DNA of 64,000 bases from Antitrichia curtipendula (lineage: Eukaryota > Streptophyta > Bryopsida > Hypnales > Leucodontaceae). The translations under genes and the position numbers were made by a program. This document shows positions 15,132 through 37,236 of this stretch, one piece after another. Location of the stretch: the NCBI GenBank assembly GCA_951230915.1, contig OX579636.1:41295912-41359911 (forward strand). Reading direction: 5' to 3'. Position 1 is the stretch's first letter. Every line of letters begins with the position of its first letter. The notes under the pieces were generated by a model. It did no database searches. It saw only the letters and a program-made list of their open reading frames with translations, and was not told where the DNA came from.

Positions 15132-15135
15132 ATTG
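15132..15135. other. Left ATTG target-site duplication of the 19.9-kb element
   Basis: ATTG lies immediately outside the left terminal inverted repeat and recurs at 35034-35037 immediately outside the right one. A related uninterrupted locus at about 10149 has a single ATTG at the junction. Confidence 0.75.
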
Positions 15136-15161
15136 ATGCCCTATTTAACTACTTTTGGACT
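15136..15161 (+). repeat. Left 26-bp terminal inverted repeat
   Basis: Begins ATGCCCTATTTAACT and is identical over 26 bp to the reverse complement of 35008-35033. Just inside, the sequence diverges, though a second GGACTT occurs about 20 bp further in. It lies only 11 bp from the Harbinger-like element on its left. Confidence 0.85.
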
Positions 15162-15761
15162 TTGGGCCCAATTTCGGACTTTTTGGAAGATATCCCATGA
15201 TGATTACAACCGACATTATGGAAAAAATCACCATCATGATGTTGAAAGTAGCTAGGATAATAGGTAATTGAGCACATATGTATATTAAAAGCCATAAAAC
15301 AGAACGCGCTTTGGCATTGTAAGCGTTTACGGTGCGTTTTTTGCTGTTTTATTCATTGAAACAAATCCATCATCTAGGGATTTCATGATGTAGAGATTGA
15401 AATACTTGTCCACAAATTTACTTCTGGAAATTGCAGACCATGTGTAAATATTGTGAATTCAAATGCTAACATGTCTACATGTTTATTTCGTTAGAAGCAT
15501 TGAGATCCACAACAAAATGGAGGTATGAAATCCATCACTGAAATTGGGAATTGGAGATCAAGAGATCTCCAGATGAAATTCCCATAGCATTATACAGGCA
15601 TATAGGATGACATGTTCAATGCATGCAAATAGAGAGATTTCTGCAAAATAGAGACAATTGTATAGTGAAGTAAGGTGAAATCACCACAATTCATTTGTAA
15701 AGATACACCAAAGCATACTTAGGCGTGCGCCTTCGAAATGAATATGAAATTAGCTTGCATT
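15162..15761. other. Left subterminal region of the element
   Basis: No gene is recognised. It contains one degenerate copy of the element palindrome at about 15556-15575. It lies between the terminal repeat and the 3' end of a possible membrane-protein ORF. Confidence 0.5.
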
Positions 15762-17617
15762 TCAGAGTCTACTATACAAGTAATTGGGGTCATCTCTAAC
15801 ATGTATGACCGGGGGGATTAAATGCATCCGCATGTTCATAGGATCTATATTAAGGAAATGAACCGTTCGATTCCTAAGTACCTCCCTGGCATGAGGATCA
15901 CTAACGAGGGTCTTCAATACATGTCGACGATGAGGATGATGCAGTTGCAACTTGCAATGTAAATCACATCCACAAGTTATCCGCCATAACCTTGAAATAA
16001 GTTTTTGTGGAAGAAAACGTGCAAGAATCTCTTTCAATGACGACCAATGCATATTCAACCAGAGGAAAACGGAAGTCGTTGTCAGCAGAAGACTAATGAA
16101 CGCCTCGAAGCGTGATAATGTCTTCACATTAATCTGGAGATCCGAAGGAGAATCGCCACTGCAGAGAGCACCCGTGAGTACCAGGATCACCACCGCCTGC
16201 AGAGAACAACACCCGCCCAGAGTCAAGGACACAATACCTATAATGAAAGGAAATGTGACCTTAATTATCGAGAGATCTCCTGATGGAATATATCCTATGA
16301 AACTGTCTGTAGCATACCCGAACAAGGGATCAGTGTTCCATGAACTGCAGTAATCAAGCATTCCGATTTACTAATAAAATTATAAAGAAGAACGCAGAAA
16401 ACAATTCGTACTTCCGACGACCCCCAGAAGCTTTGGGAAAAATGTGAGACTTGTGTAATTATGCTCCCATCGGTTCAAAGTAATTCCGAGATGATCGAGA
16501 GAAGTAGGGCTCCATTCTTAAGTGAACTGCTTATGGAGAATGTAGATCATTCATAAACTAAAATGAACTAAAAAACTACCTCCACATGTGGTGGTAGACT
16601 CAGAGGAAAAGAATTCGGACCGAGGTAAACCATGAAGATTCGTATCGTGAAATCCCGTGATGTAGACTGTAAAAGAGTAATACATCCGTACCCGAAAAGC
16701 AGAATTATCGAACATCAGGAGATCTCCGGATGAGGTAATGGACGAGCTTATTACAAAAAAACATCCGAAGAGTTTATGCAGAAGCGAACTGAACCAGTGT
16801 CCATATTACTGATGGACGAATAAGTTGGTAAGAAAAAAAAATATATATTGTAAGAACGAATTCTAAGCGAAAGAAATAAGAAACAAAACAATGATACCAT
16901 ACGCACTCAGAATAAAGATATGACATGTATAAGGAATCATGTAACGGGAGATCTTCTGATGAAGAGTCAGCAGTGGGAAGGCTAGGGGCCCCAACTTACC
17001 ACAATTCAAATACGATTAAAATTATTCCAAAGAAGGTAGAGGGGTAATAGAATACCGAGAGCGTAAATGAAGTATCTGACAAAAACATAATGAAGGACTC
17101 ATAAAACGGAGAGCATTTGTGAGACAAATCAGACATCTACATCTCTTCCGAGAAAATCCTAAAACTACGCAAATTGAACGAACTGAGTCTGCCCGAAGGA
17201 TTATAATTTACATATTACAGGATCATGGAAAATAGACGGCCATACTAAGAAATAAACAACCACATTAGCGAATTCGCTGGAAATTCCCATCATATCGATT
17301 ACAGACATTAGAAAACAGTAACTCACAGAAGGGACGGAAAATAGAGTACTTTAAAGAGAGAACAAGAACAGCTTGGTATTCGACTACAACAACACTGAAG
17401 TAAAAGAAAGCATCGTGAGATATCACGATGATCGCATTACTATGAAGATTACAAGTAAATTTATAAGGTCAACCAGTTTCTCTGTTATGAACATAAGCGT
17501 CGAAGTCAGTTACAGAAGATACATTTACTATGATTATAGTCTGTTCTACCAATATTGTGACACCCACTATCTCTACTTATAAAGAAGTCCCAGATATCAT
17601 CGTGAGATCTCCTGATA
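15556..17617. repeat. Palindrome cluster downstream of gene 1
   Basis: Copies of the 20-bp palindrome lie at 15556-15575, 16266-16285, 16713-16732, 16942-16961, 17411-17430 and 17598-17617. The 17411 copy is perfectly self-complementary (CATCGTGAGATATCACGATG). Others vary mainly at positions 4-6 and 15-17. They lie between the left terminal repeat and the gene 1 stop codon. The stretch 16362-17644 has no other recognised gene. Confidence 0.8.
15762..16361 (-). CDS. Possible small membrane protein inside the element
   Basis: A 199-codon ORF from an ATG, with two hydrophobic stretches (about residues 33-62 and 86-102) separated by a polar loop, then a basic His/Arg-rich tail. I do not recognise a family. 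One copy of the element palindrome (16266-16285) lies inside the ORF and reads PSGDLSII, the same frame in which the palindrome is read in exons of genes 1 and 2, which mildly supports real coding. A degenerate second copy may lie near residue 67. It could be a terminal exon of a longer gene, or chance. Confidence 0.35.
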   Translation of the reverse strand: MLDYCSSWNTDPLFGYATDSFIGYIPSGDLSIIKVTFPFIIGIVSLTLGGCCSLQAVVILVLTGALCSGDSPSDLQINVKTLSRFEAFISLLLTTTSVFLWLNMHWSSLKEILARFLPQKLISRLWRITCGCDLHCKLQLHHPHRRHVLKTLVSDPHAREVLRNRTVHFLNIDPMNMRMHLIPPVIHVRDDPNYLYSRL

Positions 17618-17644
17618 ACGCCTACCGAGTATGAAAAAACAGCC

Positions 17645-18300
17645 CTATTTAGGAATTCCGCCCAGAATACTCTTCGCCAGCCTGGAAAACTTAATCTCCG
17701 ACCTCTGACCACCCGGAAGTGGATGGTTCAAGACGTAGGAGACGACACTCTCGTTTGACTGAAACAGATCCTGAAGCCATGGCTTCAACTGTCCCTCCAA
17801 GAAGTAGTCCCTCAGATCACCGGCCCATGTTTTCGGATGAACGGCGGTGCATGGATCATTCAGGAGGTTCTTAATCGGACTGTCATCAATTAGAAGAACA
17901 TTGTCTAAGGAATTCAAATTCGCGATACTGGCGAAGGTGGTCAAATCCTTCAGAAAGTAGGGCCTATCCGGATTGTTGCGGTCTCTAAAGGACGACACCC
18001 TGCAATCCTCCTGCGAGAGAACAATGACGTCCGCTGCTTTAAATGAGGTGGGCCGCAGAAGGGTATCCAGTAGAGACCTCACATTCCGGCTCAAAGTGCT
18101 GCTCCAGAACGCAACGGCTGCATATCTACGCAACCAGTCAAGGAACTCTACAACACCCGGACGGGGTACATTTTTGCGTCGATTACGATCATCAAAGGAT
18201 CTGTGAAGAAGAAGCCCATTGAGGTCAAGGACCACAGAGTACCGTCTGAAAACTACCTCTCTCGATGAACTCGCCACAGGCAAGGAAGGCATTCCAAGCT
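17645..18300 (-). other. Gene 1 exon 6: FCP1/NLI-type HAD phosphatase domain
   Basis: Acceptor CTTTTGCAG joins in phase to exon 5. HAD motif I is VVLDLNGLL (D1537), where canonical enzymes have DxDxT/V, so the second Asp is Asn here. Motif II is FWSSTLS. A Lys in YFLKDL may serve as motif III, and motif IV is LLIDDSP. The following WAGDLRDYFLEG resembles the C-terminal part of NLI-interacting-factor phosphatases. The family dephosphorylates protein Ser/Thr, such as the Pol II C-terminal domain. Loss of the second Asp suggests altered or no catalysis, although DLNG variants occur in plant homologues. Confidence 0.65.
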
Positions 18301-18397
18301 CTGCAAAAGACAAAAAAAACATGTAGTTAGAGTCAATTCAGGAGACATAGCTTTAAAACAAGATATGATACAAAGAAATAGTACAGCACTCAAGCAC
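18301..18397 (-). other. Gene 1 intron 5 (97 bp), palindrome-free
   Basis: Donor ACAG/GTGCTT and acceptor TTTTGCAG/AG; phase 1 on both sides. One of the two short introns of gene 1 (with 20407-20306) that contain no palindrome. Confidence 0.7.
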
Positions 18398-18872
18398 CTG
18401 TGACGTCTTCCGTCTCATTTCCCCTCTGCTTCGGCGCATCGCTCTCCGGTACTTTCAAAGCATCTTGTGACGGTGCCCCCTGTTCAAGATTCCAGTTAAA
18501 CACCTCTTCGTATATGAAACGATTTGCTTGCCTTACGGCTTCCAGATGCTTTGACTTCGGATTATCTAGTCGTCGATTGGGGTATGAATTTAGACTCGAG
18601 AAATGACATAACTCCTTGAATACATCAAAATTGCTGACCTTCAGAACCTCTGCCCCATCTAAGGGCAAGGCATCCCAAACCCCCGTGTCCACACCTGTAT
18701 CGCTTTCTCGAGCAACCTCACCTGCTGCCTTGAGGGCGATGTTTACTACAGATGCCTCCTCAAGCCTCGACGAGTCCCTACCTAGTACGGGACTGAATAA
18801 GTCCAAATCCGTCATAGCATCCCTTCGAACGTCAACACTCATGTCCACCTGCACGCGCTTTTCTAAAGGCAC

Positions 18873-18892
18873 TATCGTGGGATCCCCCGATG
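18873..18892. repeat. Exonic palindrome copy in gene 1 exon 5
   Basis: On the coding strand this copy reads SSGDPTI in frame, inside the acidic low-complexity exon 5. The codons replacing the TCG-TGA of the canonical palindrome are TCG-GGG, so no stop results. Confidence 0.75.
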
Positions 18893-19190
18893 AAGGAAGG
18901 TTCTCCTCCACCGTCTCTATACCCTTCCCCTTGCATCTAGAAGTAACATAGTCATGGGAGATAACCGGTGTCTCCTTTAGCATCTCACCAGATACCAAAG
19001 TGCCGGTTGCAAGTTCTGATTCCTCCTTCCCTAGGATCCGCGTCTCACTTGCAGGACTCGATAGCAGCTCAGACTCTCCAGTCCTCAACTGATTCACCTC
19101 TTCATGTATGCCGGAAAGCTCCAGCGTGCAGCTAAGTGCAGGGCTAGGTGACTGACCGTCTTGCCCAACGACGACCGGGTCCTCCTGTGC

Positions 19191-19210
19191 CATCGTGAGA
19201 TCCCCCGATG
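19191..19210. repeat. Second exonic palindrome copy in gene 1 exon 5
   Basis: Reads SSGDLTM in frame on the minus strand, in the same frame as the 18873 copy and the gene 2 copy at 30633. The two exon 5 copies lie about 320 bp apart. Confidence 0.75.
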
Positions 19211-20021
19211 ACGGCTGGGCAACTTCCTCCTGCGGTCGTCCTGCCTCCTTCACAGGTGACTGAACGATCGGACCCTCTCCATTTCCCTGCTCCGCATCAG
19301 ACATCTGAGGGTGCTCAGCACCCGAGAGTGTATCGTCGGCGGACTCTAAATGTGACGGTCGAGAGGCGCAGGAAACAAGTGTCTTCGCGGCTTTTGACGC
19401 TTCCGGTGACGGCGAATCCACTGCATCGTCGCCGGAGCCCTTGCCTTGTTGATTTCCGGTTGCCACCATCTCAGGATCTGAGCGACGAACAAACCGGTCC
19501 TTCTCAATCACTTCCACGTCAGGTGACGAGGTGATTCCGTCCTCCAGGAACTTCTCCGCTGCTAGCACTGCGGTGCTCTTGCTCTTCTTCTTAACGATTA
19601 TCTTGTCCTTCATCTTCTCCAGAACATCAGAAAGCTTCTTCTTGATTTCTGGTTTTTTCCGCTTCTCCTGCGTCGACTGCTCTGGACCTCTGACTGACTT
19701 TGAAGAGTTCTTGACGGCTTTCTTACGGAGTTTTCTCTTGTCAGTAAGCGCCGCGTCCGCAGCGTCGTCCTCCAACTCACTATAGTGACGAGCAGCACCT
19801 GAACCAGCTGGTGAATCCTGAACTCCCTCCCCATGCCTTTCCCTCCCGCTCTCCCGCGCTGGACGAACTTCCTTTTCTATCTTGTTGACTAAGGGCGGAG
19901 TCTCGAAGTCACCCGTCTGCCCCCTTCCTCGCGGAGAGTCCTCCTGCGTCGGAACATGCCAACGACACTGGAAATCAGTAAGCCATTGGGATAGCGTATA
20001 TCATTGATGTGCGCTGCCAGG

Positions 20022-20041
20022 CATCCGGAGATCTCACGATG
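20022..20041. repeat. Palindrome in gene 1 intron 4
   Basis: Lies within the 98-bp intron 20065-19968 (donor AAG/GTTAGT, acceptor TTTCCAG/TG). CATCCGGAGATCTCACGATG matches the consensus except at the left arm. Confidence 0.7.
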
Positions 20042-20407
20042 GCTCAACAAGAAGTGTACACTAACCTTATTGTTCCCCTGCAATAATCCGGTTCCTCCTT
20101 CATGTTCTCGTTCACCGGAATTGTCCAATTCCTTATACGCTTCTTCCTCCTCATCCGAGTCCTGCTCCTCGTCGTTCAGTACTTGGTGCTCAGACAGTGG
20201 CTTCGGCTTCAAGTGGAAGTGGTCCCACATTTGTCTCGCAAGGGCTTGACTTTCATATGCAGCCTCCGCGGATTTCACAACTTCGAGGACTTTCACTTTG
20301 GCACTCTACAGCAGATGGGGAAGAAGAGTACGTCAATATCTGCTAGTTTATGGGATCAACATAATATTGGAAGGCGATGAAAAGGAGAGGGACAATCAGT
20401 TGCGTAC

Positions 20408-21757
20408 CATTCCTAGGAATGTGAACTCTGGTCCACCGTTAATGTTGACGAGGATAAGATCGCCATATACGTGCTCGAAGAAGATGATCATGGCCGTCGA
20501 AATCTTCAAGTATGGTACATTCTGCCGTCTCCAATATGTAAAGTCATCCCGATGCTCTTTGGACCTGTACACTTGCTTCATCTTTTTAGATTCTCCCGGG
20601 AAGAAGGTTTTGAAAGACAATTGCGAACCATATTCCTTGTTGTACCCGAAGCAGAACACAATGAAGACGTTGAAGCCCTCCCCGGCGACAGCCTCCGGGA
20701 ATCCGTCCTCTGGTGCCGTCATGTAATTGACGAGGTGCAGGTCCCACACTCTAGTGTTGCCGTTTTCACGTCTTCTCTTCTCCAAATGAAGACACAGCAT
20801 GTGGTATCCCTCTGCATTAGTAAGGAGTACGGCGGCAGACCGGGCTGTGATAAGCTTCGTGAATGGGTCGTAGCACTCCAAAGCGTCGAAGAATAGTCTC
20901 AGTCTTCGATCCTCCAGAAGTTTTGCCCGTGATCCCAAATCCATCTGCTCAAAGAGAAACCAGAAGTACATGTGCGGCTTACTTCCATCCCGCCAAGAAA
21001 CAACGTCGGGGTTCCTCAGAACACTGCTGAGATTCCCGGAGTGGTCGTCCAAGACTCTGTACATGTAGTTCTCGGAGTACCCCTTCTCAAGCGCCTCCTC
21101 CACTCCAATGGTCGCCGTCGAACTGAAGTACGCCTCCTACATGTCCCGCACAAATTGCGGACAGTCAGCCGGGTCGATCGTCTTGTTAAGCCCCGCTATG
21201 CGATCCAGCAGCCACTTTGATCCGGAATGCAAATCCATGGCTTTGTTCACCCAAAGCTCTACTTGCTCGCGATCTATTCCCTTCTCCTTCGCGAAGTCGT
21301 CCCACTCCATTGGGGAGTATGGTTCGTACTCCGGCTTCTTGCTGGGTAGTGGATGCTTCCTGTAGTGAAGCATCAACTCGTTCTTCATCCCCCGAATGAG
21401 GCGCTCCTTGGCGCCTGCCGAAGCAAGAGTCGTGAGGGGTTTCGGGGTCTTGACCTTGCCGCTCTTCACGGTAATTTTTTTCTCTTCCACGAGAGTCGCA
21501 AGGTAGTTGATGTCTTCCGCTCGAAGCCCATACAATGTCTTGAAATCGTTTGCAGTAAGGGGCTTGCGCTTCAGAGATCAGGTCTCATTGACTGACCCTG
21601 CGATGTCCGGCAGCAACCCTGTCATGTACTTCTCCTCGATTTTAATCCATCTGTCAACATCCTTGTCGTCCTCGAGAAAGGCAAGTGGAATCCGCAGCTC
21701 CTTGTTGTCTTTTGGCTTCTGACCCGTGAAGATTGTTACAAGGGACGAATGAAATGC
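20408..21757 (-). other. Gene 1 exon 3: unrecognised 450-codon region with two stops
   Basis: Phase-0 exon between an acceptor at TTGAGTAG and a donor at GTACGC. It has mixed alpha/beta composition with well-formed segments such as YKWLLDRIA-like helices and a Trp/Tyr-rich middle (PHMYFWFLFEQMDL). In-frame TGA (21580-21578) and TAG (21139-21137) occur in otherwise coding-like sequence, with clean reading on both sides. I recognise no family. Confidence 0.5.
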
Positions 21758-21816
21758 CTACTCAAGACCAGAAACACAACGGGACTATTAGTACAGGACC
21801 GTGTACAGCATTGAAG

Positions 21817-21958
21817 CATCAGGGGATCTCACAATAATATACTATTTTGGAGGAAGTCACCGTGTATTTCGACAATCGAAGTGGACATTTCATTCTAGAG
21901 TAAGCGAACTCATGATCCTAGATTGAGAGCTACATTAGCATCAGGGGATCCCACAATA
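21817..21958. repeat. Two palindromes in gene 1 intron 2
   Basis: Copies at 21817-21836 and 21939-21958, both with right arm ending ACAATA, inside the 265-bp intron 22022-21758. The two are close relatives of each other, suggesting local duplication or gene conversion. Confidence 0.7.
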
Positions 21959-22022
21959 TTGAAAATGAAGACTGCATTTAGCAGTGGACCGACCAAATGA
22001 GGGCATTTGACATCACTCATAC

Positions 22023-23343
22023 CAAGTACTTCTTGTCGTGGTGCCTGCCAAAGAGTGCTGGTTGCGGGCTGCCCATGTCTCTCCATTTGATCCTGGCGTT
22101 GATTAGTTGCTTCGTGAAGCACTGCTCTTTCTGTTCGCCAACAAGAGTTTGGTTGAGGGCCCGTGAAAGCAACAACACGTTATCGAAGTTCTCCTTCTTG
22201 GCGAAGATGGGTACTATGTTGAATGTCGTCGCTAACTTCCTGTCCGCCTCTGCTATCTCGCCGTCTTTCACCAGATTCCTGTACGCCCTCACAGTGTGTT
22301 GTCCCCCTATAATGAAGTACTGAGTCTTTGTGCTGAAAACCGCATTGTCGGGCTCCTCTTTGTAGAAGTCGGCCTTCTTCTTGTCCCCATAAGGACCGCG
22401 CTCGACAGGGAGCACCGTTATAACTCTATTATCTGAGTCGAAGTCAGGTGCGATTCTGGCCTTGTTCGTGATCCCTTCAAGGCGGCTTTGCTCTATCCCT
22501 TTGTACACGAAAATTCCGGGGGGAGCCTCGTGCAGGCAATCGTAGTGTACGCGGATGGGATCTCCGGCCATGTTGCAGAATGGTTTCTTCCCCCATCGGT
22601 ACAAGTCCGTGAAATGGGTGTCATACAACTTCTTCATCTTAGTCATGTCCTCCCTTGTCAGCTTCTTGATTTCGCTCTCTTCCATATTCACGCACACGTG
22701 AATAGATAACTCGGTCCCTACCTTTCGCTTTTTCCCAGATGATGTGGCTTCTTCTGCCACCTCTTTGTCACATGGAGCTCCGGCAGCTGACTTGCACTTC
22801 TTGGCCTTCTTCTTCGGAGATGGTTTGGTAGGAGTACCGTGAACAACTGGACGCTCGGGAGCTCCAACGTCGATCTGATCCTCGTCAATCAAATCCCACT
22901 GAGATTTCATTTCAGCCACACTCCAATGGGGTGATGAGGTGCTTCTACAGAACAGCAAGGATCTGTCTGTCATGGACTTGCACTTCGTCATGTTGAGCTT
23001 AGCGTAGTCCAAGATTAAGCCGTAGGTGATGAACTGGTCACTCTTCGGTATCTTTTCCTCCACAACGACAAGAACTGTATGCCCATCAAGGCCCTGCATC
23101 TCCGTGACGTTTAGCCCAGCTGGTTTGTGCACCCTGTCGAGATGTCTCAGCATCGGGACGATGAGAGCCTTGCCTTCCTCTATCACGAACTCCAGCTACC
23201 ACTCCGTGACGCTGAGGTTGCATCGGAAAACTGCCGCCGGATTGTGCTCTCCGATGTACTCGAAGGAATGTATCCAGCAGTCGACAAAGGCTGCAAGCTT
23301 CCTTGGGCTCAAGTCCTCAGGAATGTCCTGCATCTGTGCACCA
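22023..23343 (-). other. Gene 1 exon 2: ParB/Srx or DGQHR-like segment
   Basis: After an N-terminal region rich in Trp/Cys/His (starting about residue 18), a basic linker with KKKAKKCKS and SGKKRKVG (possible nuclear localisation signals) precedes the segment holding YFIIGGQHTVRAYRNL. The GGQHT of residues 364-368 resembles the G-Q-H-R/T core of ParB/sulfiredoxin-like and DGQHR domains, with the following basic helix and a hydrophobic strand (NIVPIF). This fold family includes DNA-binding CTPases and DNA-modification proteins. Assignment rests on a short motif and is tentative. TAG at 23196-23198 interrupts the exon between TEW and LEF. Confidence 0.5.
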
Positions 23344-23410
23344 CTGCAGCATTTCATATCATACGAAGTGTTAGATTAGAGTGTCATCATAGCAGGTCCA
23401 CATCTGGAAT

Positions 23411-24202
23411 CATCGTGAGATCACACGATGTCTGCTTATACAGTAGGGCTTCTATGACAGATTATTACGACACCGCGGCTTCGAATGGAACTGGAGAGTT
23501 CCTACATGAACATCATCAGGGGATCTCACGATGCTAGACTATTACTGGTCGTCATCGTGAGATCTCACGATGTGTCCTCACTCATACATCCGGGTTTATG
23601 GTTTAGACTGAACTACTTATTATTCATGATCTGTTGGTCTACCTTGCTTATCAAGGGATCACACGATGCAATCACTATAAGGGAAGTAGCTCTGGTTGGG
23701 CAAACTACAATAAGCTTTGGTGTTCTGGGATACCACTCATGATCCGTTATCGTGAGATCTCACGGTAATCTCTCTTTTATTCTACAGCTTCAGTCTCAGG
23801 AGTGAGATTTTACGATTATGCGGTTGCTTTTTCAGCTTATTGAGAATCTTATTTCCCTCATTTCTTTTATGTCTCTTGGTTATCAGGGGATCTCACGATG
23901 ATTTGAATGTGAATACAATCATTTACAGGACATCCAATGCAGATTAACTGTCCCAAATTTCCCAGTCGGACTACTCTAATGGATACTTCATTGTGGGATC
24001 TCCTGATAGGGCTGACCCCTTATGCATTTCTCTGGTTGATGCCACGCCACGATGCGCGGTTATAGGGTTTTAACAACCTTAAAACCGTGGGTTCTGAACT
24101 ACAGACCTGTAATTATCGTGCATTCTTCAATCTGCTAATTCTAAAACCTCTGCTGTTCTTGTCTAAAACTCTGTAATGGTAGTATGGTGAGATCTCACAA
24201 CA
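23411..24202. repeat. Dense palindrome cluster in gene 1 intron 1
   Basis: The 879-bp intron 24222-23344 holds copies at 23411-23430, 23514-23533, 23553-23572, 23649-23668, 23748-23767, 23881-23900, 23989-24008 and 24183-24202, about one per 100 bp. A degenerate one lies near 23803. The 23553 copy is the perfect palindrome CATCGTGAGATCTCACGATG. Between copies the sequence is unrelated, so this is dispersion rather than a tandem array. Confidence 0.85.
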
Positions 24203-24275
24203 TACGGTTCAGAGGAACTTACCTGTCATTCCAAATTGGAAGGCCTCCGTTGCGTTGTGATGACGGTCCTGCCAT

Positions 24276-25133
24276 GCTTCGTCTTCAACGTGGTCAAGGC
24301 CACAAAGCAACCTTCAATGTACGAATCGCAGCCTCAACTCCTGATACATGACAGCAAAGATCAACATCAGGAAGCCATAAATTTGAACTATGTATCAAAC
24401 TCAAAGAACCGCAATGGATACAGCTTAAACTTGCACGCCAGTGAGCACAAGAACAAGGTGGGACAAATTTGAACGGAAGCGAGTAGTATTTCTCCGAAAC
24501 TCAATGAAACTACTAATAACATCTACATGCCGTCCAACGTCCACAATGTCAAAGCTACCAACAAGATAGCACAAGCTAACAGCACAATTGTTCTCAACGC
24601 ACAAAATAAAAATCCCGTGATGCATTTCCAAAAGCGAGCAAGTGGGGACACTCAAACGGAGACATTGACTCACCTGCGCAACAACTCTTTCAAGCCCGCT
24701 GCACATCGCAAAGCAGGTACTATTTGCTCCAACTCCTCCAAGGTTGGACGCGCTCCCGGAGTAGTTCCAATGTCCTGCAGCTCCAGCAATCCTCCAATGT
24801 CGGACGCGCCTCGCCGCCAACAACGCCAAGTTCCACTCACTGACGACGAGGGAAGTTGTCCACTCCAGAAGACCAGCGGCACAAAACGCAAAGGATCAAG
24901 ATCGAAGACTGGAACATCGGGAGAGAAAACAGCGTGAGGTTGGGGAAAGGAAGAGTATCGGGAGAGAAAACAACGGGAGGCAGTAAAACTCTCATCGGGG
25001 GAAAGAGAAAACCATCCGGAGGCGACAGAGGCCACGTGGCGCGAGCGGACAGGGCGAGGCGGAAGACCGGCGGCGGATGTACAAGGCCATGATGACCACA
25101 ATTCATCAAAGAACTCAATTCATTAAAAGCCAC
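24276..25133 (-). promoter_or_regulatory. Presumed 5' region of element gene 1
   Basis: Moderately GC-rich DNA upstream of the proposed ATG, with overlapping open frames on both strands but no recognised protein. Near 24915-24975 the phrase ATCGGGAGAGAAAACA occurs twice. No palindrome copy occurs here, unlike the introns. A promoter and 5' leader are inferred from position only; a non-coding upstream exon is possible. Confidence 0.35.
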
Positions 25134-25971
25134 ATCATGAGATTTTTATAAAATCCATGAAATACATATCATGAGATTTTCTGGCTCTTGTAGAGGACGG
25201 AGGTCTAATCAAAATTTATTTAACTTACTACTAACTATTCAAATTTAAATTGATGAACACTCTTTTCCAATAAGTTTTAGAACTACTTTCTTTTTTATAT
25301 AACAAATACTTTCTTAGAACATTATGTGTACTATCCGTGTGTGTACAACCAAGATAAAAGTAAAGAAAAGGTTAACTAATTAGTTCGTAATTGAATTAAA
25401 GTATGTCAATTATTTTTGACACCCTAAGCAACGTATCAAATGTCCAGTTCAACAACGTTGCGAAGGATTATTTCCTACAGTTAAGAAATTGAAAACACTA
25501 AGAATGTTTTCTTCTGGTTAATTTTCCATCAAGATTAGAATTAGTTAAAAAAAAAGGAAGTGTACATTGTCATTCGTCCTATTTCCAATATATAGGAATA
25601 CCTATTTTTCCTAGTGCAAAATCTTAACAACTTTATTAGATGTTACTTCGTCACATTTTCAGAACGTTAAAAAATTGACCACCCTGGTCGAGAGTAGGTA
25701 ACTTTGTCTAATCCAAATTGGATCGTGAGCATCTTACATCTTATAACTTAGAGTAATAATCACAAAATAAATCAATTATTACAATCATACAACCTAAATT
25801 AGATCATGTTTTATTAGGAATACTTGCAATTCAGCAAAACGCTATAAGGTTAGCGAAGTTCAAAGGCCTTTCTTCCATGAACACCATATTCATTCAAATG
25901 AGAGTTTTCCATTGAAATGAAAGATAAATTTAAAAAATTCGGTGAAAAGGTTTTAATGCAATTGAAGTCGA

Positions 25972-26121
25972 GTTTTGACCTGAATTGACATAAAACGTTT
26001 GAGATTTGACCTAATTTTGAAAGGTTTTCTTGCAATTTATGTCGATTCGTCCTAAATTGCAATAAAACCTTTCAAAATTAGGTCAAATCTCAAACGTTTT
26101 ATGTCAATTTCAGGTCAAAAC
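25972..26121. repeat. Near-perfect long hairpin, 68-bp arms
   Basis: Arm 25972-26039 is the reverse complement of 26053-26121 with one mismatch and one single-base indel, around a 13-base loop (TGTCGATTCGTCC). RNA from either strand would fold into a long duplex suitable for small-RNA processing. It may instead be a young foldback MITE. Confidence 0.8.
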
Positions 26122-27864
26122 AAATATTCATTGCTACAAAATACTGCCACAATCATCACTTGCTGGAAATGAAGATAATCTATGTAAATAAAAATCATGT
26201 AATTCATGTGCATAAATTAAATGTACTTGTAGTAAAATTTTGGTAATTGTTGTGAATCATAATTTCAAAATGAAATCCATGTTTTTAGTATACATCATAA
26301 AAAATCATTTACCTATACATCATATGCAATCATATGGCTTGCAATGATGTGCCATGATACATCATAAATTCAGTAAGTGCTAATCCACGTGAGATAATTT
26401 CCATTCATTTGACATGACATGATTTATTACTCCAATCTTCACAATGATAGTGTAACTATTTAATTTTTCTAACAAGTTCAGCTTACAAAAACATAAAAGG
26501 TTATTTGTATTTAACACTAGCAAAAGGGGGCATACATTAATTGCAATCTTCAATTGCCATAAATTTACCATATGCCATTTTACTCTTATATTTTTTTCTC
26601 TTTAATTTTTTTTCAGCTCTAATTTTTTTTCCCACCACTTCCGACTGAAAGTTAGAAACTTCGGTGAAGAATTTAGAGTTCCCAAATATGGTGCTTAAGA
26701 AGAAGTGCCCATTGCAGAAGGATTTAAACGTTACAAAAAGTTGTTGCACTCAGTTGCACTCCATGCAACTAACAAACTCTTCTAAGTAAACCCGTTTTGC
26801 TCCTATTTTTTCTTTTTTAAAATGAACATCCAACTACTATTTGAAGTGGCACTCTATATATTGGTCATCTGGTACATGATTTTCCTGAATTCCTTGTTTT
26901 CATTTTAATAATTTATAAACTTAGCAAAGCTACGGAACACCAAACATTTGCAGCCTTTTGCTAGCTTACGTGAATTAAAAATATAACTGCTAGTATATGA
27001 CATCAATTTCAATTTTATGGTGCGCAATAGTTTTGGGGGAATTCAATAGATTCCATGCCTCTGTTCTTCATTTGATACTAAGTTTTTTTGAGAGTGCCTA
27101 AAGAAATCTATCTAATGATTATTCTACAATTCAATTCAGAATTTAAAAATTTGTGTATATTGCCTACTAGTTACATATGTGGTAGTTGTACTTGCATACA
27201 AACTGAAACAATTACTTTTGATATCTTCAATTACGAATTATAGAACCTTGTTGTAGAAAACATTTAAAATTAAAGTTTGCATAAACGCGAGACATAGGTT
27301 CAATGTCCTTGTTTCAAATTAAAGGCTTGCATTTCGGAAAACAACAACTAGGGACACCATTATTAAATAACAATGTAACTCAACATCAAATTCAATGGAG
27401 AGAGAAATCAACACAAAGGTTGTCTAAGCCACGATCGCTCCTAAACAACATGATCACATAAATTATTGAAAGCTAACCATTACTCAATGTAATTTGAATT
27501 AAAAACATGAACATAAATTACACTTCAATATCGATGGTTCAAATTGTTTTGCAAGATGTGGGCACTTATAGCCCTTCAGTTTTGTGAAATCATAATTTAT
27601 ATTAAGAGCATTCCTCGATTCGACATTTTCTAATTAAGATAAACAAATGATTGGTATAAAAATACCGTCTAAATTTACTACTTTCACTGCCAAAAAACAC
27701 CCTCCAATTTTATATTATCTTGATGTTTGAAATCCTACTATTGTGGACAATATAAACCTATAACTCTAAAGCAAAGGAACCAAAAAACTAAGATTGTGAA
27801 CCCTAAAATCGAAGACCGTGAACCTTGCAGTATAAGATATTGAAACCCTAAATCCTTAAATTCA

Positions 27865-27995
27865 CTTTAATCTAAACCCTAAACCCTAAGCCCTAAAGCC
27901 CTTGAACCCTAAATAACCCTAAAACCTTGAAAACCCTCCCCCCCTAAACTCTAAACCCTAAAACCCTAAAACCCTAAAGAAACCCTAAACCCTAA
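27865..27995 (-). repeat. Interstitial telomere-type repeats
   Basis: A degenerate run of CCCTAAA and variants (CCCTAAAACC, CCCTAAG) in the CCCTAAA orientation, inside the AT-rich central block. This is the plant telomere motif TTTAGGG in reverse. Confidence 0.8.
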
Positions 27996-28430
27996 GAACG
28001 CTGAATTCTGAAATCCTTACCCATAAAAATGCTGAGGAATTTTTTTTTATTACATTAATAATAGATAGTTAATACATTAATACAGGACAGTTTGAAATTT
28101 GCTATTAGAAATAAAAACTAACCCCCAGTATTTATCTAGCAAAACTAGTGCCAACTCTAGCATATGTATTTGAAATGAATATTAATGAACCCGTACTTTT
28201 TGTACCTTCTGCATTTTTTTGATATTCTATTTTTTTTATTTTTTTATTTTCATTTATATTTTTAGCTTATCTTCATTTAAATTTTATTACTATTTTCAGT
28301 GTTTTGAGTTTTTTTATTTTTTTATTTTTTCCTTTTTTTATTTTTTTTTTTATTTTTTTTTTTTGAGAACTGTGAGTTCCTTGCTGTCATGGCATATATT
28401 TCTCATGCTTCTTTCATGAAGAATTATCTT

Positions 28431-29359
28431 AGGACAATAAATTGATCTGCAAATGGCAAAGCGTCAAATATGAATTCGGGATTCCTTGGCTCACTGAGAA
28501 ACTGACAGTGTTCAAAGCTAGGTTCGCTTTGCTAAAAGTATCATTGATCCTCAGAGTCCCTTGCAACGATGCCATCTTTGAATGCAACGAAATTCCACAT
28601 GTCAGTGAGGATTTGAAAGACCGGTCAAGATTCAAATTCTAAATTTTCTGGTAGGAAATCAAGAGACGCACGCCCTCCCTTCAAGTTGTCAGGGCCGTGC
28701 GGATATGGAAAGATCGGTCAACATAAGCGGGAAACGGCAGCACGTAATCCAGCGCCTTGTTGAATGCGGCGCGACATTCAAGAACGCATCCAACATCCGA
28801 AATGAAGGAACGCGCCTCCATTTCAAAATGTCATGGCGGGAATTCGGAGTTCGAGAATCCCAACCCAGTTCAGTCATAAGCTTTGAGGAACCTGAAGCTT
28901 TCTCTTTTCTGCACTTGATTAAGCTGTGGAGGCTTTGGAGTGAGCAAGTCGTGCTGCTTGCTAGTGCCATTTCCTCTTGTTGCTGGCACAGAAGGCTCTC
29001 AACTGATCTAGTCGTTGCAAGGTATGCTACCAAGACTTCCAATTTCATTGCTCATGATTGCTTCGATGATTTTGCTTCGCTCTAGACGACCCAGCTGTTC
29101 CTCAGATGAGAAACAGGCATGTGCGGAGAGAGAGAGAGAGAGGGATAAGATCCGGGAAGAGCAGAGGCTGCATTTAGTTTGTCCATTGTTCTCGACTGCA
29201 GCCGGATTAGATCAAGATTCAGCTCCTGAGAAGGATGGAACAAAGGTCTGGGTGTACGTGGACACAACGATCATGTAGTATGGAGACGACAATGTTGTAT
29301 GTATATGATGTCTTGTATCCACGGCATACGTATACGTATGTTTGAATGTACAGAATGAC
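28431..29359 (+). promoter_or_regulatory. Presumed 5' region of element gene 2
   Basis: Composition returns to that of the genes. Short open frames (for example 28705-29085) have no recognised domain. An untranslated exon may end near a GTATGT donor at about 29296 and join an acceptor such as TATTCGCAG near 30220. If so, the palindrome cluster 29360-29987 lies in a leader intron, mirroring gene 1. This is inference. Confidence 0.3.
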
Positions 29360-29987
29360 TATCGTGTGATCCCATGATAGTTTGCTAGGCTGTTCGACAA
29401 TCCCTATTACGTGTAGTTATTGCAGGATCTTGCGATGTCTACATCATGGGATCCCACGACAGGAGTTCTGGGGCTTCCCTTCAGATTTGGAACAGGAGAC
29501 CTCTACATAGATTAACTTGTGGTGCAGCCTATTGTGTCCTCCGTTTTCATGGAGGTATCGTGGGATCTCACGTTGTCTACATTACGGCATTTGGCAGTCG
29601 GAGCTTTTGGTTCAGAGTTGGATCAGGGGATCTCACGATAGTTAATCTTGGGCTGCAACTTATAGTTTTCACCAAGTATTTTGAGAAATGGGGAATCGTG
29701 GGATCGCACGATAGATGAATCCTGAGGTTTCTCTATCGTCTTATCCATGGATGACTTGATAGCTCCGGCAGAGGATCTCGTGTCAGTCGTATTATGAAGT
29801 TACATGATACCATTTTCCGGGGATGGTAGTCTACATCCATGTTAGGGGCATCGAATGGTGCCTAGTTTGGAATCCTGTACGTGTAATGCTTAGCGCGATT
29901 CCAAATAATGCAAGCGACAATATCGCTTGGTTACAAAAGGAACCATCCCTAGTTCTCTTAGTACATACATCGTGAGATCTCCTGATG
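29360..29987. repeat. Palindrome cluster upstream of gene 2
   Basis: Copies at 29360-29379, 29418-29437, 29442-29461, 29556-29575, 29621-29640, 29694-29713 and 29968-29987, with several more degenerate ones between 29740 and 29815. Density matches intron 1 of gene 1. The stretch from the last copy to 30265 shows nothing else recognised. Confidence 0.85.
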
Positions 29988-30632
29988 AAGAAAACAGATG
30001 GTTGATAATGACCATTCATCTTCTGATCACAAGGTGATGTTGCATTGCATGACCTTGACTATAATGAGATGGTTTCCATATGTTTTGCGCCTTGATTAGC
30101 ATATCTGCTTTCACATGATTCAAAATGTTTGGGCAGATGTCGTATCCTGTACTAGGCAAGTGCTATGAATTCTGTCCCTGCCCTACCTAACTCTGTCTAG
30201 CCTTCATCCTATTCGCAGATAATTGTGCTCCACCAGTTTTCCCTTTTTCAAGAAGTTCATCGTTCATGATGGTCTCAACGCGTCATTCGAATGCTGGTGC
30301 GATAATTCCTCATTTTGAAGGACCAGGCGTGCATGGTGAATCGCATGCCTCCAGTGGTGCACCTGAACCATTCGCCAATGGTGATTGGCTTAGGTTGTTT
30401 GCTTATGGCTTCGGTGAAGTTGGAGCAGGGATGGTAAAGGAGGTTCGTCCAGAGGGTCAGTGGCTTGGTGTGCCCATCCCGTTGGAGCCGTGGACTTACA
30501 TTTTAGTTTGGGTGCAGTCTATCAAACCCGAATTTCAAGGTTTAAGGTGCGCACCCGTTCAGATAGGGGTGAGATTTTTGGGGGACACTCAAGAACGGAT
30601 AGTTCTGTGGAGAGCCGCCGACGTCGTCAGAT

Positions 30633-30652
30633 CATCAGGAGATCCCCCAATG
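30633..30652. repeat. Exonic palindrome copy in gene 2
   Basis: Reads SSGDPPM in frame within exon 1 (about residues 122-128), the same frame as the exonic copies of gene 1. It sits between two well-formed coding segments. Confidence 0.7.
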
Positions 30653-31611
30653 GATGCACGTCCGTATATTCGACAGGGAGTCTGGTGGGGTCTAGATGTG
30701 CATCGAAAAGACTCGAGCGGTGTCGTATTGTCGTTGGGTCGAATATTCACTTGGAGGCCGGATGATCATTTTCAGGATGAAACACTTGGTGAGGACCACG
30801 TGGGTGTGACAATCCGCGAGGTTTTTGTGGGGAATGAAGAAGATGTTATGTCTCACGCTCGGTGGCCACTGTCTGAGTGCTGGTTTCTGAATGGTCGGTC
30901 CTTGGAGGAGACCGTGCATCATTTTTCAGTAGTTCCGGATTTGGACGACCCTCTGGCTTATCTCGGCGGCAGAATGAAAGCTCCGTATCGATTCGTAGTT
31001 TGTAAGCCATGTTTGGACGTGACGGATTCACTGTACGATCGGAAAACTACTGACGATGAGATTCGGGAGGTCACCTTGTTAAAATGCTGCAATTGTTTAT
31101 GTTGCCAGCACTTCAACCAGTTCCAGACACTCCTTGTGAGGCAGAAATACTACTTGAAAGCATTTGAGGACCGCCGCGAGTATGGCAGCTCTGTCGGAGG
31201 ACAACTTCATGAGCTTGACGGGAATCGGAAGAGAAAATTCGTCACATTAATGGGGATGGAGGTTTGTGCCACGGCATGGTACATAATTCACGGTATCTTG
31301 AAGTCGACATACCATAGTTACATAGAGAAGTATAACGAGGGCACTGTATCGGGAACGCACGGAAACAAGGGCATTAAGCGCCCACGGATTCGAACTGTCC
31401 AGGTCACTGGAACTATGAAATCCATCATAGACGAGAACGCGGACCAAATGCCCCATCAAATGCGTGGAATCGGGAACGGGCGAGTGGACACGCTGAAGTT
31501 CTTGCCTGCGGGACGAAACTGGAAACGCGTCCAGGCAGATGCCAACGAGGTATTTGTCTTACTCATTGCTCAATGCGTGGCTGATTGTGATTTCCTACCA
31601 TGGGCTGTGAT

Positions 31612-31631
31612 CATCGTGTGATCTCACGATG
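31612..31631. repeat. Palindrome in the gene 2 intron
   Basis: CATCGTGTGATCTCACGATG lies inside the 167-bp intron 31550-31716, between donor GAG/GTATTT and acceptor CTGTGCAG/CTC. Confidence 0.8.
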
Positions 31632-33683
31632 TTCTCTTGGATGTTGGGTGTTCAACTTTGCAGTTCTTCATTGTCAGTTGTACCCAGGCTAATGTGCGGT
31701 TCTCTTTCCTGTGCAGCTCAATGCGGACTACGGACTTCCTCCTGTCAGTCAGTCCACTATCAGTAGACTGAGGAAGGAGCACTTCAACAATGTTTATATT
31801 AAGCCTGTTGGAAGTTCGTTTGCAAAGTGTAGCACATGCGACCAGCTTCAGCAATTTCTTCTGAAATCACCGAAGGGGTGCCCTCAGTATGTGGAGTCCA
31901 TGAAGCAACGCACTGAACATCTCAATCACCAAGCTTCTTGCCGTCGACTGTATGCGTCTTGGCGTGAGGAATCCAAACAAAATCCTCAGGAGATATTGTG
32001 TATAATTCACGACAAGATGGATACAGCCAAGACGGCTTTACCAAGAATGCGGGTGACCACGAAGGCCACGGCGGGGTTGGGACAACTTCCACTTAGCGTT
32101 ACTGGTATGGTAGCCCATGGTCATGCTGATGGGGCTTACGCCCATTATGCTCCGTCTTGCTGGCCAGGAGATTCCAACTTCACAATTTCGTTGCTGGCCA
32201 GACTGTTGCGCCGGTTGGAGGGTCCACCGATTCGAGAGACAGGCGACCTGTTCCCGTATCCGCCGGCTAATCCGATGTTTGAGGTTCTTCTGAGGGGAAA
32301 GTCTAGATGTTTGGACAGCTTAACCCTTGTTGAACCAGGAGCTCGGGTCGGCTCCACTCCTCTTCCCCGAAATTTGTATCTTCAGCTTGACAACTCTGCT
32401 AAGGATAACAAGAACCAGTACCTCATGGTGTTCTTGTCCCTGCTAACTGCACGAGGTGTCTTTAAAGAAATTCAAGTTGGTTTTCTGCTTGTGGGACACA
32501 CTCATGAAGACATCGATGCATATTTCAGCCATCTCTCGAAGGCCTTGAAGAGCAAAAACACTTTTGTTGTCGCGGACCTCATGAAGGCGTTCATGCAATC
32601 TCAGGAACTGTCATTTATGCCGGAGTTCATACAAGAAGTGCCTGGGGGACTTCAAGTCGTTCATAAAGGGTTACCAGAGCAATGGCTCCGCTAGACTAAT
32701 TGGACTAGAGGAGATGCATCTTTTCAAGTTCTACGTGGATAGTGATGGAGTCGCAGTCATGAAATATAAGAAGTCAGCAGTGGACTCGAAGTGGCTACCG
32801 TCTGATAAGCCATCAACCCGCCTTTGGAAGCGAGACCGCAATGGTCGGCCAATGCTCCCTCATGGGTTTCCAAAGCCTGTTCCATTCAAGCCAATGTGGG
32901 GCAGTGAGGTTCCTAAACCAACGGGAAATCAAGAGAAGGCTAAGGAAATGGCACGAAAGGCAACCGTGAATAAGGGATTCATGCTAATAGGCCTAGAGAA
33001 GTACATTCAGTATTGGCAGAACGGAATGTCCAAATGCGACGGATTTGCGACGGCGTTCGGTTGATACATGGAATATTGGAAGCGCGTGCTGATCGAGTTG
33101 AAGGAACCATTACCTGAATGTGCTGCTGAATTAGTGAAGGGTTTCTGGCCGAAGCACGATTGGAGGGTGCCTCGCACTGAAGGACCTCTCGCGGGGTTTA
33201 CTGGGAATCCCTTCGATGTGATTCCGGAGGAGGAGGATCTCGAACCTTACTGCGGCCCTGCAAATGAAGCGCCTCTGGAAAGCTTCAATCCCTGGCTTGA
33301 CATACGCCCAGGGTCATGGGTGCTTCTGAGACTCGAAAATCCAGCAATCTGTGCTGTATGGCAAGGAAGAGCACTATCTGCCGTATGCAAAGTCAATGGA
33401 GATGCAAATAACGAGAAGTTCTTGATACAGTATTGGCGACCGGATAACTCGGAGAGTACTATGGAATTGAGGTACCGGAATTGCTGGGAGGGTAAGTGGG
33501 TTGTTGAGAGAAGGGCCCCGGAATGGGTGGATGCTACTTGTGTTGTGTATTCGAACTGGTCCAAGATAGTAGATCCAAAGTCACGGACAATTCCAAAGAA
33601 GAGTAGGGAGGCTACCTTAGTAAATTTGAATCGGGCAAACGAGGTTGACCCTTGATGGACTCCCCTGTTCGGATCTTCCCGAT

Positions 33684-34985
33684 CATCGGGAGATCTTCTG
33701 ATCCTTTCTACGGGCCATGCCGCCATCGTGAGATCTCCTGATGAAATCTCCAACCACTTAGCGCAGTCAAGAGTTGTACTTCTGTGTTTGAGTATGACTG
33801 CTTGTAGACACCATTTTCTTGCAGCTGTTGTCTGTGACATGTAATACCGTATGTCGGCATAATGAAAACATCTATTTCGGTATGCTGCGGTTTAATCTCT
33901 GCATGCAACTTAGGATAATTTTGCTTATACCTGAAGTGTGGCTTCGGCTTTCTCTGATGTGTTGCATTGCATGTGGTTCATGTTTGTATTAGATTGAAAG
34001 TGCAGTGCTTGGATTATGCGTGCTTCAGTATTAATCTGTGTCTGCAATTTATTTCCTCTCACATTTAGTGAACGAGGGAATTCTGCTTTCATGGATTTCT
34101 TGATCTTTAGTCTCAAGAAGTAGGCAACCAGGTAGAGACCATTTCTAGTAGTGAGAGAGATTCCATGTTCCTTTCACACAATCTGTTACTATTTCTGATG
34201 GAACAATATGCTTGCCATTATTCATCTGGAGTCAGATTGGCAATGTCTTAGTCTTTACACACTCCTCCAGTTGCCTTCCTACAAATTTCATCGGGGGATC
34301 TCCTGGTGTACCACTGGAGGTCAGCCATGATGTACATTTGCTGCAAAACGGATTCTAGCTACGAACGCAGTCGTGGACCTCCGCGTGAATGAGTGGTTAA
34401 TAATATACAGTGAGTGTTGGCATTTAATCACAAACCATCACTTTGTTATAGATGATTACATTGCTTGACGATGTTAGTACTCTATCGGGGGATCTCACGT
34501 TGAAATCATGACTGCGGGCGTTCTCCCTAAGAGGAAATCCTCATTTGATAATTATGTAATCATCTCCTACTCTTTGAGACAATCTCTTACATCATGTCTT
34601 CTTGTGAATCATATACTGTTTTGGAGGACTGTAAGTATAGCACTCGCATTGTACCACAAGAGTTGAGATAGGGATTCATATGGGTGATGGGAGCTATATT
34701 TGCTTCAAGCACTTTTCATCGGGAGATCTCTCGATACTTTTTGGGACGTTGTTCTACTGCTAATGGGATCCTCAAATATTGGATACCTTGGTCGGATTTC
34801 TCCCAATCCAGTAGTGCAAACTTCTGCACAGTAATTATCGAGCAATGTCTGAAGAATTCGAGTCATTTCTATACAGACAAAGCAGTTCATGCAGTAGTAA
34901 CGACTGCAAAACTTGATGCATGCAACCCCATCATACATGGGGAAATCTCCTGATATAGAGGAAAACATCGGGGGATTTTGCCACT
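33684..34985. repeat. Palindrome cluster downstream of gene 2
   Basis: Copies at 33684-33703, 33724-33743, 34289-34308, 34483-34502, 34717-34736 and 34936-34955, with a decayed one at about 34966-34985. They fill the space from the gene 2 stop to the right terminal repeat. No further gene is seen in 33656-35007. Confidence 0.8.
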
Positions 34986-35007
34986 TCCTTAATTCTGGAC
35001 TACCCCC

Positions 35008-35033
35008 AGTCCAAAAGTAGTTAAATAGGGCAT
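35008..35033 (-). repeat. Right 26-bp terminal inverted repeat
   Basis: Reverse complement of the left terminal repeat without mismatch, followed by ATTG at 35034-35037. Just inside lies a small hairpin (GGACTACCCCCAGTCC, about 34997-35012) that overlaps the repeat. Confidence 0.85.
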
Positions 35034-35037
35034 ATTG

Positions 35038-37236
35038 TGACAAAAAAACAAAAACAAAAAACTTGTGTAGCCTTGCGTGCAAACATACTTCCTACTCACG
35101 AAGATGGAGAAGCTAAAGGTCCTGCAGAAACGAACACAAGACGCTGACAGAGAAGGCAAAGGTCCCCACAAGCCAAAGAGTTGCAGAAAGCTGTTGAGAA
35201 AAACTGTTGAGAAAACCGAATTGCTTGCTGAGCGAGCTGAAGGCAAATTATGTTGATGCAATGGCTACTGTCAAGCTAGGCATCCGCAAAGCCTTCGGAC
35301 ATTGTGGAGTCGTCTAGTACTTCGAGTTTTGAGTGCTAAGAAATTGCAGACTTCCTTTGCATCACACATTCTTCGCCGCAAAAAGGGTGCATTTTTTGTG
35401 TTGGGTTACTTGTATCGAGACTGCAGCAAATACAAATCCTCAACCTCGAAATTGTTCGAACTTGAGATCTTGGCTGCGGAGAAGTTCTTCGACAACCTGT
35501 CTCTTCAATTCTCACTATGGATATCCACTGACTACTCCAAGCACAAAGCTTTCGATTCCAATGGTTGATAGAACTTTCAACTCATTCCAAGATCCGGTAT
35601 GTCTTTTTCAGTCAACTCATTACAGAAGTTGTTACTTGTACAATTGCATCATTGCGGATGCATTCTCGGGTAAATTCTCATCATGTATACCATTTTTTTC
35701 TTTTTCTTTGAAGATTGAGGTCCTAATAATCTCTGACATCTATACACTCTGCAGCACAAAATGGATTAAGCCCATTGATGCCTTCAACTGGATTCCATGA
35801 GCTAGAATGGAATCACCTTGTCTGTCTCCACTCCTTCCTTTGGAATTCATTTAGGGACAATTTTCAATCAAGCTTTGTAGGTTAAGTATGTTTTTGCCTT
35901 GGCAATCAACAATTTGAATGGTGATGGCGTGATCGCATTCTATTTCATGTGAATTGTGAGCAAACAAAGAAAGACATAAGTGGATTTCTTCTAGTCTTAC
36001 CATTTCAAAAGTATGCAAGGCAAGTGGATGGGAATTAATCGACTGCAAATGACGGAGTATGAAGGATTCATTGAAGACAATGAGCTTGTATTGCATTTGT
36101 TATGCTTTCTAATGACTTCCAAATGTTGCTAAGTAGTAGTTGGGTTTCTCTTCATGAATATAGAGCCTTTGCTTATGCATCAAACTTCTTGTGTGGAATC
36201 AACTATGTGTTATGTCCTCTATGTGTTAATTGCTATTAGTTCAAGAATTAGAGGCAATTTAATTGCATTGATCTTGGTGGTGAAAGACTCATAGCTCAAG
36301 AGAAGCAACATTAATTTCATGGCAAGGATCTAGAGGAAATGACCCTTATCAAGCTCTTTATTCATCCAAATGCTAATTGAATCAGTGACATAGGTTGGAG
36401 ACATTGAATTCAACTGCACCATAGCCACATGTAGAACACCTCTCAAACGCAAATGTTTGTTGTTATCATTGCAACAATTCTTTTCATTACTCCATATAAC
36501 TACTTGGTTATGTGCATGCTTGTTGCAAATCGGATAGGCATACCACAATGTACCCTTCAAGGAAGATAAAGACATTTTCAACACCATCCTTGAGCCCTTC
36601 ATCATTGGCACTGGAAGTGTGGTTTTAGGAAGAAGAGTTTTGATAAAAGATCATTGCTCAAGACTTTAAGGAAGCCAATAAGTTAGATAACTTGCCAATC
36701 CTACATATTACGCATGAAAATCAATTGTATAGGAAATTTTGCTAAAATGGTGATATTCCATATGCCATTTTTAAACTATGCAGTCTAAACCATTTAGAAT
36801 AAGTATAGATTTCAGACCGTGCAATCTAAATCATCTAGGATAGGTATAGATTTCAAATTACACAGTCTAAACTATAAAAGTGCCAAAGTTGTAGAATGAC
36901 TGCCGTTTTAATGAAATTTCCCATTTGTGTATTAGAGTTGTCTCATATTGTGTACATTGTAGTTACAATTTCTTTCTAAATTCTTACTTTTTGAAACTAC
37001 ACTTAATTTGAAAAGTTGAGTTTAATTTGTGAACTGAAGCTTAGCTTTGAGGAGTCTGAACATGAAAGCAGTGCATCATGCAATTTTGGCATTTGGATTT
37101 GATTTCAAGCCCTTAGAAACCATTCAAATTGCTTGTTATACATTGGCAATAGAAATTAATACCATTTCACTCCAACTCTAATTTTTATATTTATTTATCC
37201 TTTGATGATCACCTATAAACAAGAATATATAATCAT
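35038..37236. other. Spacer right of the element
   Basis: No secure gene. A 50-codon ORF from ATG 35104 is rich in Lys, Glu and Arg but too short to call. About 36779-36872 holds two copies of a roughly 50-bp tandem unit built on GTCTAAACCAT and GGTATAGATTTCA. A 28-bp segment at 37141-37168 is the exact reverse complement of 10452-10479. Confidence 0.45.

Follow-up and report, generated by a model that had tools for sequence, protein, structure and literature searches.

A giant Sola-like transposon family in the moss Antitrichia curtipendula with an accessory protein that probably docks on private palindromes

A stretch of 64,000 nucleotides from contig OX579636.1 of Antitrichia curtipendula (the window) was analysed. 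There is practically no doubt that the element at 15136-35033 (~19.9 kb) is one copy of a real, multiplied family of giant transposons. The element carries a transposase gene (gene 2), a single opposite-strand accessory gene (gene 1) and dozens of copies of a short palindrome. On balance, it is best read as a giant cut-and-paste transposon resembling Sola, and Sola1 in particular, whose accessory protein probably docks on these private palindromes. The palindromes together with the accessory protein are the interesting part of the family.

Ends, target-site duplications and genomic copies

The left and right terminal inverted repeats (TIRs; 15136-15161, + strand, and 35008-35033, - strand) were identical over 26 bp and were bordered by the target-site duplication ATTG at 15132-15135 and 35034-35037. 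When the 26-bp sequence was searched in the window with up to three mismatches, two matches only were found, both being the ends of the element, and 100 shuffles gave none. The original prediction of perfect 26-bp inverted ends with an ATTG duplication was therefore confirmed, and that of a complete two-gene TIR transposon was borne out. A related uninterrupted target at 10149 had also been claimed. That site proved weak, as the right flank alone aligned (score 38, with 20 controls reaching at most 31) and just four bases past the duplication matched on the left side. Since the match was one-sided, the empty site was dropped as boundary evidence, and the boundaries were considered settled because 13 other copies define them instead.

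The genome (400,189,583 bases, 303 contigs) was searched with the 125 bases at the left end of the element, and left ends were found in at least 40 scored places (among at least 97 candidates) with 98-100% identity. The window copy, six fetched copies and the ends of ten more were examined, giving 17 in all; the fetched copies were drawn from the best-scoring left ends, and well-preserved copies were over-represented. The right end was present in the fetched DNA of 13 of the 16 other copies, and none was found in the DNA fetched for C5a, C6a and C9c. All 13 copies possessed an exact 4-bp duplication around both ends, which together with the window copy made 14/14. The duplications were ATTG, TTGG, TTGT, GGTG, GTGA, CTTT, ACAT, CCAT, GTTT, ATTT, TCTA, AAAG, GTAT and TCTT, without a common fixed sequence. 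The right TIR was perfect in 12 of the 13 other copies and had one mismatch in the remaining one. The absence of any other inverted pair with 4-bp duplications had been named beforehand as evidence against such a transposon; 13 further pairs of this kind were thus recorded. The length of the 14 copies ranged from 19.1 to 24.6 kb, and the copies C9b, C10b and C1a (23.0-24.6 kb) contained extra DNA, probably nested insertions.

Transposase gene and superfamily placement

Gene 2 (30266-33655, + strand; exons 30266-31549 and 31717-33655) was predicted from open frames and GT-AG junctions, and in the window copy it was broken by one frameshift and one in-frame stop. The encoded transposase matched the Pfam profile DUF7869 with an E value of 1.5e-38. 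Ten relatives were found, including those of Physcomitrium patens (39%) and Ceratodon purpureus (41%), the nearest being a metagenome protein (72%). In the DUF7869 alignment of 11 rows, the window included, D225, E264, D265 and D267 were invariant, and D99 and D102 were present in at least 90% of the rows. The acidic residues D99/D102, D225 and E264/D265/D267 appear to be spaced as in a DDE/D core, E264, D265 and D267 being indistinguishable from the alignment as the third catalytic residue. Both the profile match and the conserved acidic residues lent support to the DUF7869-like gene with a putative DDE core that had been predicted. A conserved CxxC...H segment was located ahead of the core. 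In a low-confidence model of the transposase (P0001), D115 and D241 stood at the ends of strands or directly after them, and the GHTHEDID motif contained the start of a helix; such features would suit an RNase-H-like enzyme.

Residues 539-639 of P0001 (window ~33,290-33,600) showed a likeness to chromo-barrel, BAH and SH3-like folds at a low Z of 6.7, and the C-terminal part of the transposase is possibly a chromatin reader. A scan of IMG/VR with the transposase, gene 1 and TIR queries returned no matches.

The duplications were further compared with those of other superfamilies. They are 8 bp long in hAT, about 9 bp in Mutator and 3 bp in CACTA and Harbinger, and are TA in mariner; the 4-bp duplications in 14/14 copies agreed with none of these. 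Ginger elements possess a retroviral-type integrase core (Pfam rve), and DUF7869 only was found by Pfam in the core of gene 2 and its relatives. In the part of the literature cited, a TTAA duplication is given for Kolobok and piggyBac, and one of 3-5 bp instead for the KolobokP lineage (PMC9587614). TTAA was seen in 0 of the 14 duplications, a result that sets the family apart from Kolobok and piggyBac and does not cover the KolobokP lineage.

It had been claimed that the element fits no superfamily. This claim was not upheld, as Sola was missing from the list considered at that time and the element agreed with the description of Sola as far as this was testable. In the cited part of that description, Sola has a DDD transposase, 4-bp duplications and TIRs of 11-1124 bp, occurs in Physcomitrella, and is usually 2-9 kb and sometimes more than 15 kb long (PMC10741241); a Physcomitrella Sola1 is named in PMC9033089. 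The 4-bp duplication was recorded in 14/14 copies with both ends (17 examined), with TIRs of 26 bp and lengths of 19.1-24.6 kb in the 14 copies. The family thus shares with Sola generally the 4-bp duplications, the TIRs, the length of more than 15 kb that Sola sometimes reaches and a moss host, and the DDD-type transposase of Sola compares with the conserved acidic residues of gene 2, the third residue being ambiguous (PMC10741241, PMC9033089, PMC3627910). In contrast, the Sola descriptions, in the parts cited, contain neither an accessory gene nor palindromes, and most Sola elements are 2-9 kb long (PMC10741241, PMC9033089, PMC3627910).

Sola1-1_Ec32 of Ectocarpus, as described in the cited part of its account, is 21.5 kb long and carries an opposite-strand gene for a ParB-like accessory protein of 1104 aa with a DNA methyltransferase domain (PMC12477816). 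The moss element is similar to it in its giant size and in having a transposase and one opposite-strand accessory gene. Based on published description and layout, rather than on transposase sequence, it was considered likely that the element is a Sola, most likely Sola1. A transposon superfamily of its own, sharing with Sola the 4-bp duplication only, would gain from two facts: the likeness to Sola rests on descriptions and not on the sequence of a named Sola transposase, which is a weakness of the placement, and the term DUF7869 was not found in the literature searched. Such a superfamily was regarded as unlikely, since the family agrees with published Sola or Sola1 in the length of the duplication, in element size and TIR length, in its host group and in having a divergent accessory gene.

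Accessory gene and private palindromes

Gene 1 (17645-24275, - strand) has 1729 codons and a stop, and six exons were predicted from the open frame and GT-AG junctions (exons 1-6: 24223-24275, 22023-23343, 20408-21757, 20066-20305, 18398-19967 and 17645-18300). The two divergent spliced genes of the original prediction were supported by open frames and GT-AG junctions, yet neither is intact in the window copy, where gene 1 has three in-frame stops. Exon 6 (17645-18300, - strand) encodes an FCP1/NIF-type HAD domain with DLNGL as motif I. The C-terminus matched Pfam PF03031 (NIF) with an E value of 6e-16 and 59 bits (cut-off 21.8); it scored 25 bits against a dullard-like NCBIfam model that needs 139, and weak TIM50 matches were obtained with exon 6.

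The end of exon 2 (22023-22360, - strand) contains a GGxHT motif that is ParB/Srx-like by eye only. No ParB profile match to gene 1 was found in Pfam, PHROGs or NCBIfam. A gene 1 profile performed no better than a reversed control against nine SopB proteins in a comparison that was underpowered, and a tblastn search against phage gave a single match with an E value of 4. Hence, from the predicted combination of ParB/Srx-like and HAD domains, the HAD domain was retained and the ParB/Srx part was supported by no profile. One relative of exon 2, P0011, was found among 7990 candidates scored, with 49% identity and an end at the same splice point. Exons 2-3 as a single query gave no relative at E 0.001 among 7996 candidates scored, and exon 2 had no match by sequence among solved structures. 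The methyltransferase motif [DNS]PP[YFWH] was found in neither gene 1 nor P0011, and a methyltransferase of the Ectocarpus style in gene 1 was rejected for that reason.

Purifying selection was estimated as the ratio of nonsynonymous to synonymous substitution rates (dN/dS), codons with stops or gaps being dropped. Across six copies, the window included, gene 1 had a pooled value of 0.437 and gene 2 one of 0.414; wrong frames gave 0.63-0.83, and noncoding stretches treated as codons gave 0.52-0.72. The copies were thus under modest purifying selection despite broken frames. These values bear on the possibility that gene 1 was captured from the host and is a passenger with no role in the life of the element. 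FCP1-type domains are common in plants, and that of gene 1 forms a separate exon, the last one, which speaks for a capture. However, gene 1 was under about the same constraint as the transposase, it was present at least in part in 6/6 other fetched copies, and exon 2 has the relative with an identical exon end. A passenger was therefore considered improbable.

The palindrome has 20 informative positions, CATCRKGRGATCYCMYGATG, and uninformative flanks, as deduced from 35 aligned sites. Scanning with an 18-base consensus and up to three mismatches gave 35 sites in the element and none in the remaining 44,102 bases of the window, when five Markov-shuffled elements gave 0 or 1. With four mismatches, one weak site outside the element appeared at 58955, which is within chance. 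A weight-matrix scan added four weak sites inside and three outside, and shuffled windows gave 3-9 at that threshold. The dozens of private palindrome copies noted originally were thereby confirmed.

Only 3 of the 35 palindromes were located in coding exons, though such exons cover 42% of the element (p 2e-5). Eight were found 3' of gene 1 at 15372-17616 (starts 15372, 15557, 16267, 16644, 16714, 16943, 17412 and 17599) and five within gene 1 at 18874-21957 (18874 and 19192 coding; 20023, 21818 and 21940 in introns). Intron 1 of gene 1 held eight at 23412-24201 (23412, 23515, 23554, 23650, 23749, 23882, 23990 and 24184), and six lay upstream of gene 2 at 29361-29986 (29361, 29443, 29557, 29622, 29695 and 29969). 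Two were found in gene 2 at 30634-31630 (30634 coding; 31613 in the intron), and six 3' of gene 2 at 33685-34954 (33685, 33725, 34290, 34484, 34718 and 34937). The sites were therefore clustered in intron 1, upstream of gene 2 and in the two terminal regions.

Four other well-preserved copies contained 34, 35, 35 and 34 palindromes, with none in 11,451 flank bases, and none was found in 31,134 bases past nine further right ends. Two copies without a right end had 31 and 19 palindromes in the DNA fetched. The positions agreed between copies. Small mobile elements can leave short symmetric repeats, and the palindromes could in principle be non-functional, as remains of this kind or as an artefact. 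This was judged highly improbable, as they have no conserved flanks, do not occur elsewhere in the DNA examined and occupy the same places across copies.

A further explanation is that the palindromes are transposase binding sites at which the transposition complex is assembled or regulated, gene 1 doing something else. In CACTA elements, subterminal repeats serve the transposition complex, and here eight palindromes fall within the left terminal 2.5 kb and six within the right terminal 1.4 kb; the CxxC...H segment of gene 2 would also suit such binding. Against this, 21 of the 35 palindromes are internal, including eight within the first intron of gene 1 and six upstream of gene 2, groups that look regulatory rather than end-binding, and the TIR holds no palindrome. 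This explanation was considered rather unlikely.

We proposed the following mechanism. The gene 2 DDE/D transposase would presumably bind to the 26-bp ends and integrate the element through a staggered cut of 4 bp. The gene 1 protein would dock as a dimer on the ~35 private palindromes across noncoding DNA, by which copies would be recognised as 'self', and there its FCP1-type HAD domain would act on transcription or chromatin, one possible effect being to keep the element expressed against host silencing. The chances that the gene 1 protein binds the palindromes, its presumed partner, were considered about even, and an anti-silencing or self-marking role is possible.

According to a published proposal, the ParB-like accessory proteins found in giant algal transposons bind to the element that encodes them and modify or mark it (PMC12477816). 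The cited part of that account names no binding site and does not mention private palindromes either, and the 20-bp palindrome is an obvious candidate site. As this palindrome is well defined, restricted to the element in all DNA examined and present 34-35 times per well-preserved copy, the proposal is directly testable.

By the cited parts of its accounts, VANC21 is the nearest functionally tested system. It binds a 9-base motif dense in the noncoding regions of its own VANDAL21 element in Arabidopsis (PMC5735166) and removes silent marks at VANDAL21 (PMC10398659). The moss family likewise combines an element-coded accessory protein with an element-specific motif that is frequent in introns, between genes and in terminal noncoding DNA (3/35 sites coding, 0 outside in the DNA examined). 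VANDAL21 differs in being Mutator-like with 9-mers in same-orientation arrays, whereas the 20-bp palindrome here is dispersed with irregular spacing. Bacterial ParB/parS is a partition system. It is similar in pairing a protein that has a ParB-like motif (in gene 1, by eye) with palindromic sites carried by the mobile DNA itself; the moss element differs in that gene 1 has no ParB profile match and the element is integrated in a chromosome. By analogy, a VANC-like or ParB/parS-like self-recognition system in a giant moss transposon was suggested tentatively. With similar reserve, a protein that combines a ParB-like DNA reader with an FCP1-type HAD domain may load on the ~35 palindromes and keep the element transcribed or marked as self, having evolved separately and acting independently of a methyltransferase. 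If true, element-coded self-recognition, as in VANDAL/VANC, would reach mosses and another transposon superfamily.

Several points weigh against the interpretation of the element and its accessory protein given here. The transposase had no match among solved structures, whether the P0001 sequence, the model or the DUF7869 profile was used, and the sequence search gave a single meaningless match (E 0.99). Gene 1 resembles the Ectocarpus protein in layout only, because neither a methyltransferase motif nor a ParB profile match was found; in Sola1-1_Ec32 the protein is called ParB-like in the cited part of its account, whereas in gene 1 the name refers to the GGxHT motif, and gene 1 ends in the HAD domain instead of carrying a methyltransferase. 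Motif I of FCP1/NIF HAD phosphatases is DxDx(T/V). The DLNGL of gene 1 departs from it, Asn replacing the second Asp, and the HAD domain may not be an active phosphatase. The selection signal was modest, and it was pooled from non-independent copy pairs without a significance test. Stops were present in gene 1 in 6/6 copies compared (the window and five others), one to six in each, insertions relative to the window being unscored and one copy being without part of gene 2. Finally, the palindromes changed among copies at a rate of 0.037, compared with 0.034 and 0.049 for their flanks, the GATC core alone being slow (0.0125). Because the palindromes change no slower than the flanks, that core excepted, their conservation among copies is not itself evidence, and the case rests on the resemblance of 35 otherwise unrelated places to one palindrome.

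Central block and flanking genes

The two genes are separated by an AT-rich central block of ~3.5 kb (25181-28640) with 30% GC, as in the host flanks (versus 46-48%), and without palindromes. The block was present in six other fetched copies, nearly whole in four and in part in two. A private nested insert of the window copy was therefore rejected as its origin, as it has no clean ends and is shared by these copies; it is possible that the block is an old insert fixed in the family. Since the other fetched copies also have it, the length of ~19.9 kb is a family trait. The block contains a near-perfect 150-bp palindrome (94%) at 25972-26121, also seen in six other fetched copies. Additionally, a degenerate array of a plant telomere-like unit, AAACCCTA, was located within the transposon at 27872-27995. 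Rfam and tRNA scans gave no matches.

A direct repeat of 1.43 kb with 91% identity flanks the transposon on both sides (10503-11928 and 37234-38657) and probably represents two copies of another repeat. The right flank contains ordinary plant genes, namely those for a galactosyltransferase with DUF4094 (40763-42004), aspartate-semialdehyde dehydrogenase (45228-46598), PetM (50011-50397) and an ACR9-like ACT protein (54832-55905).

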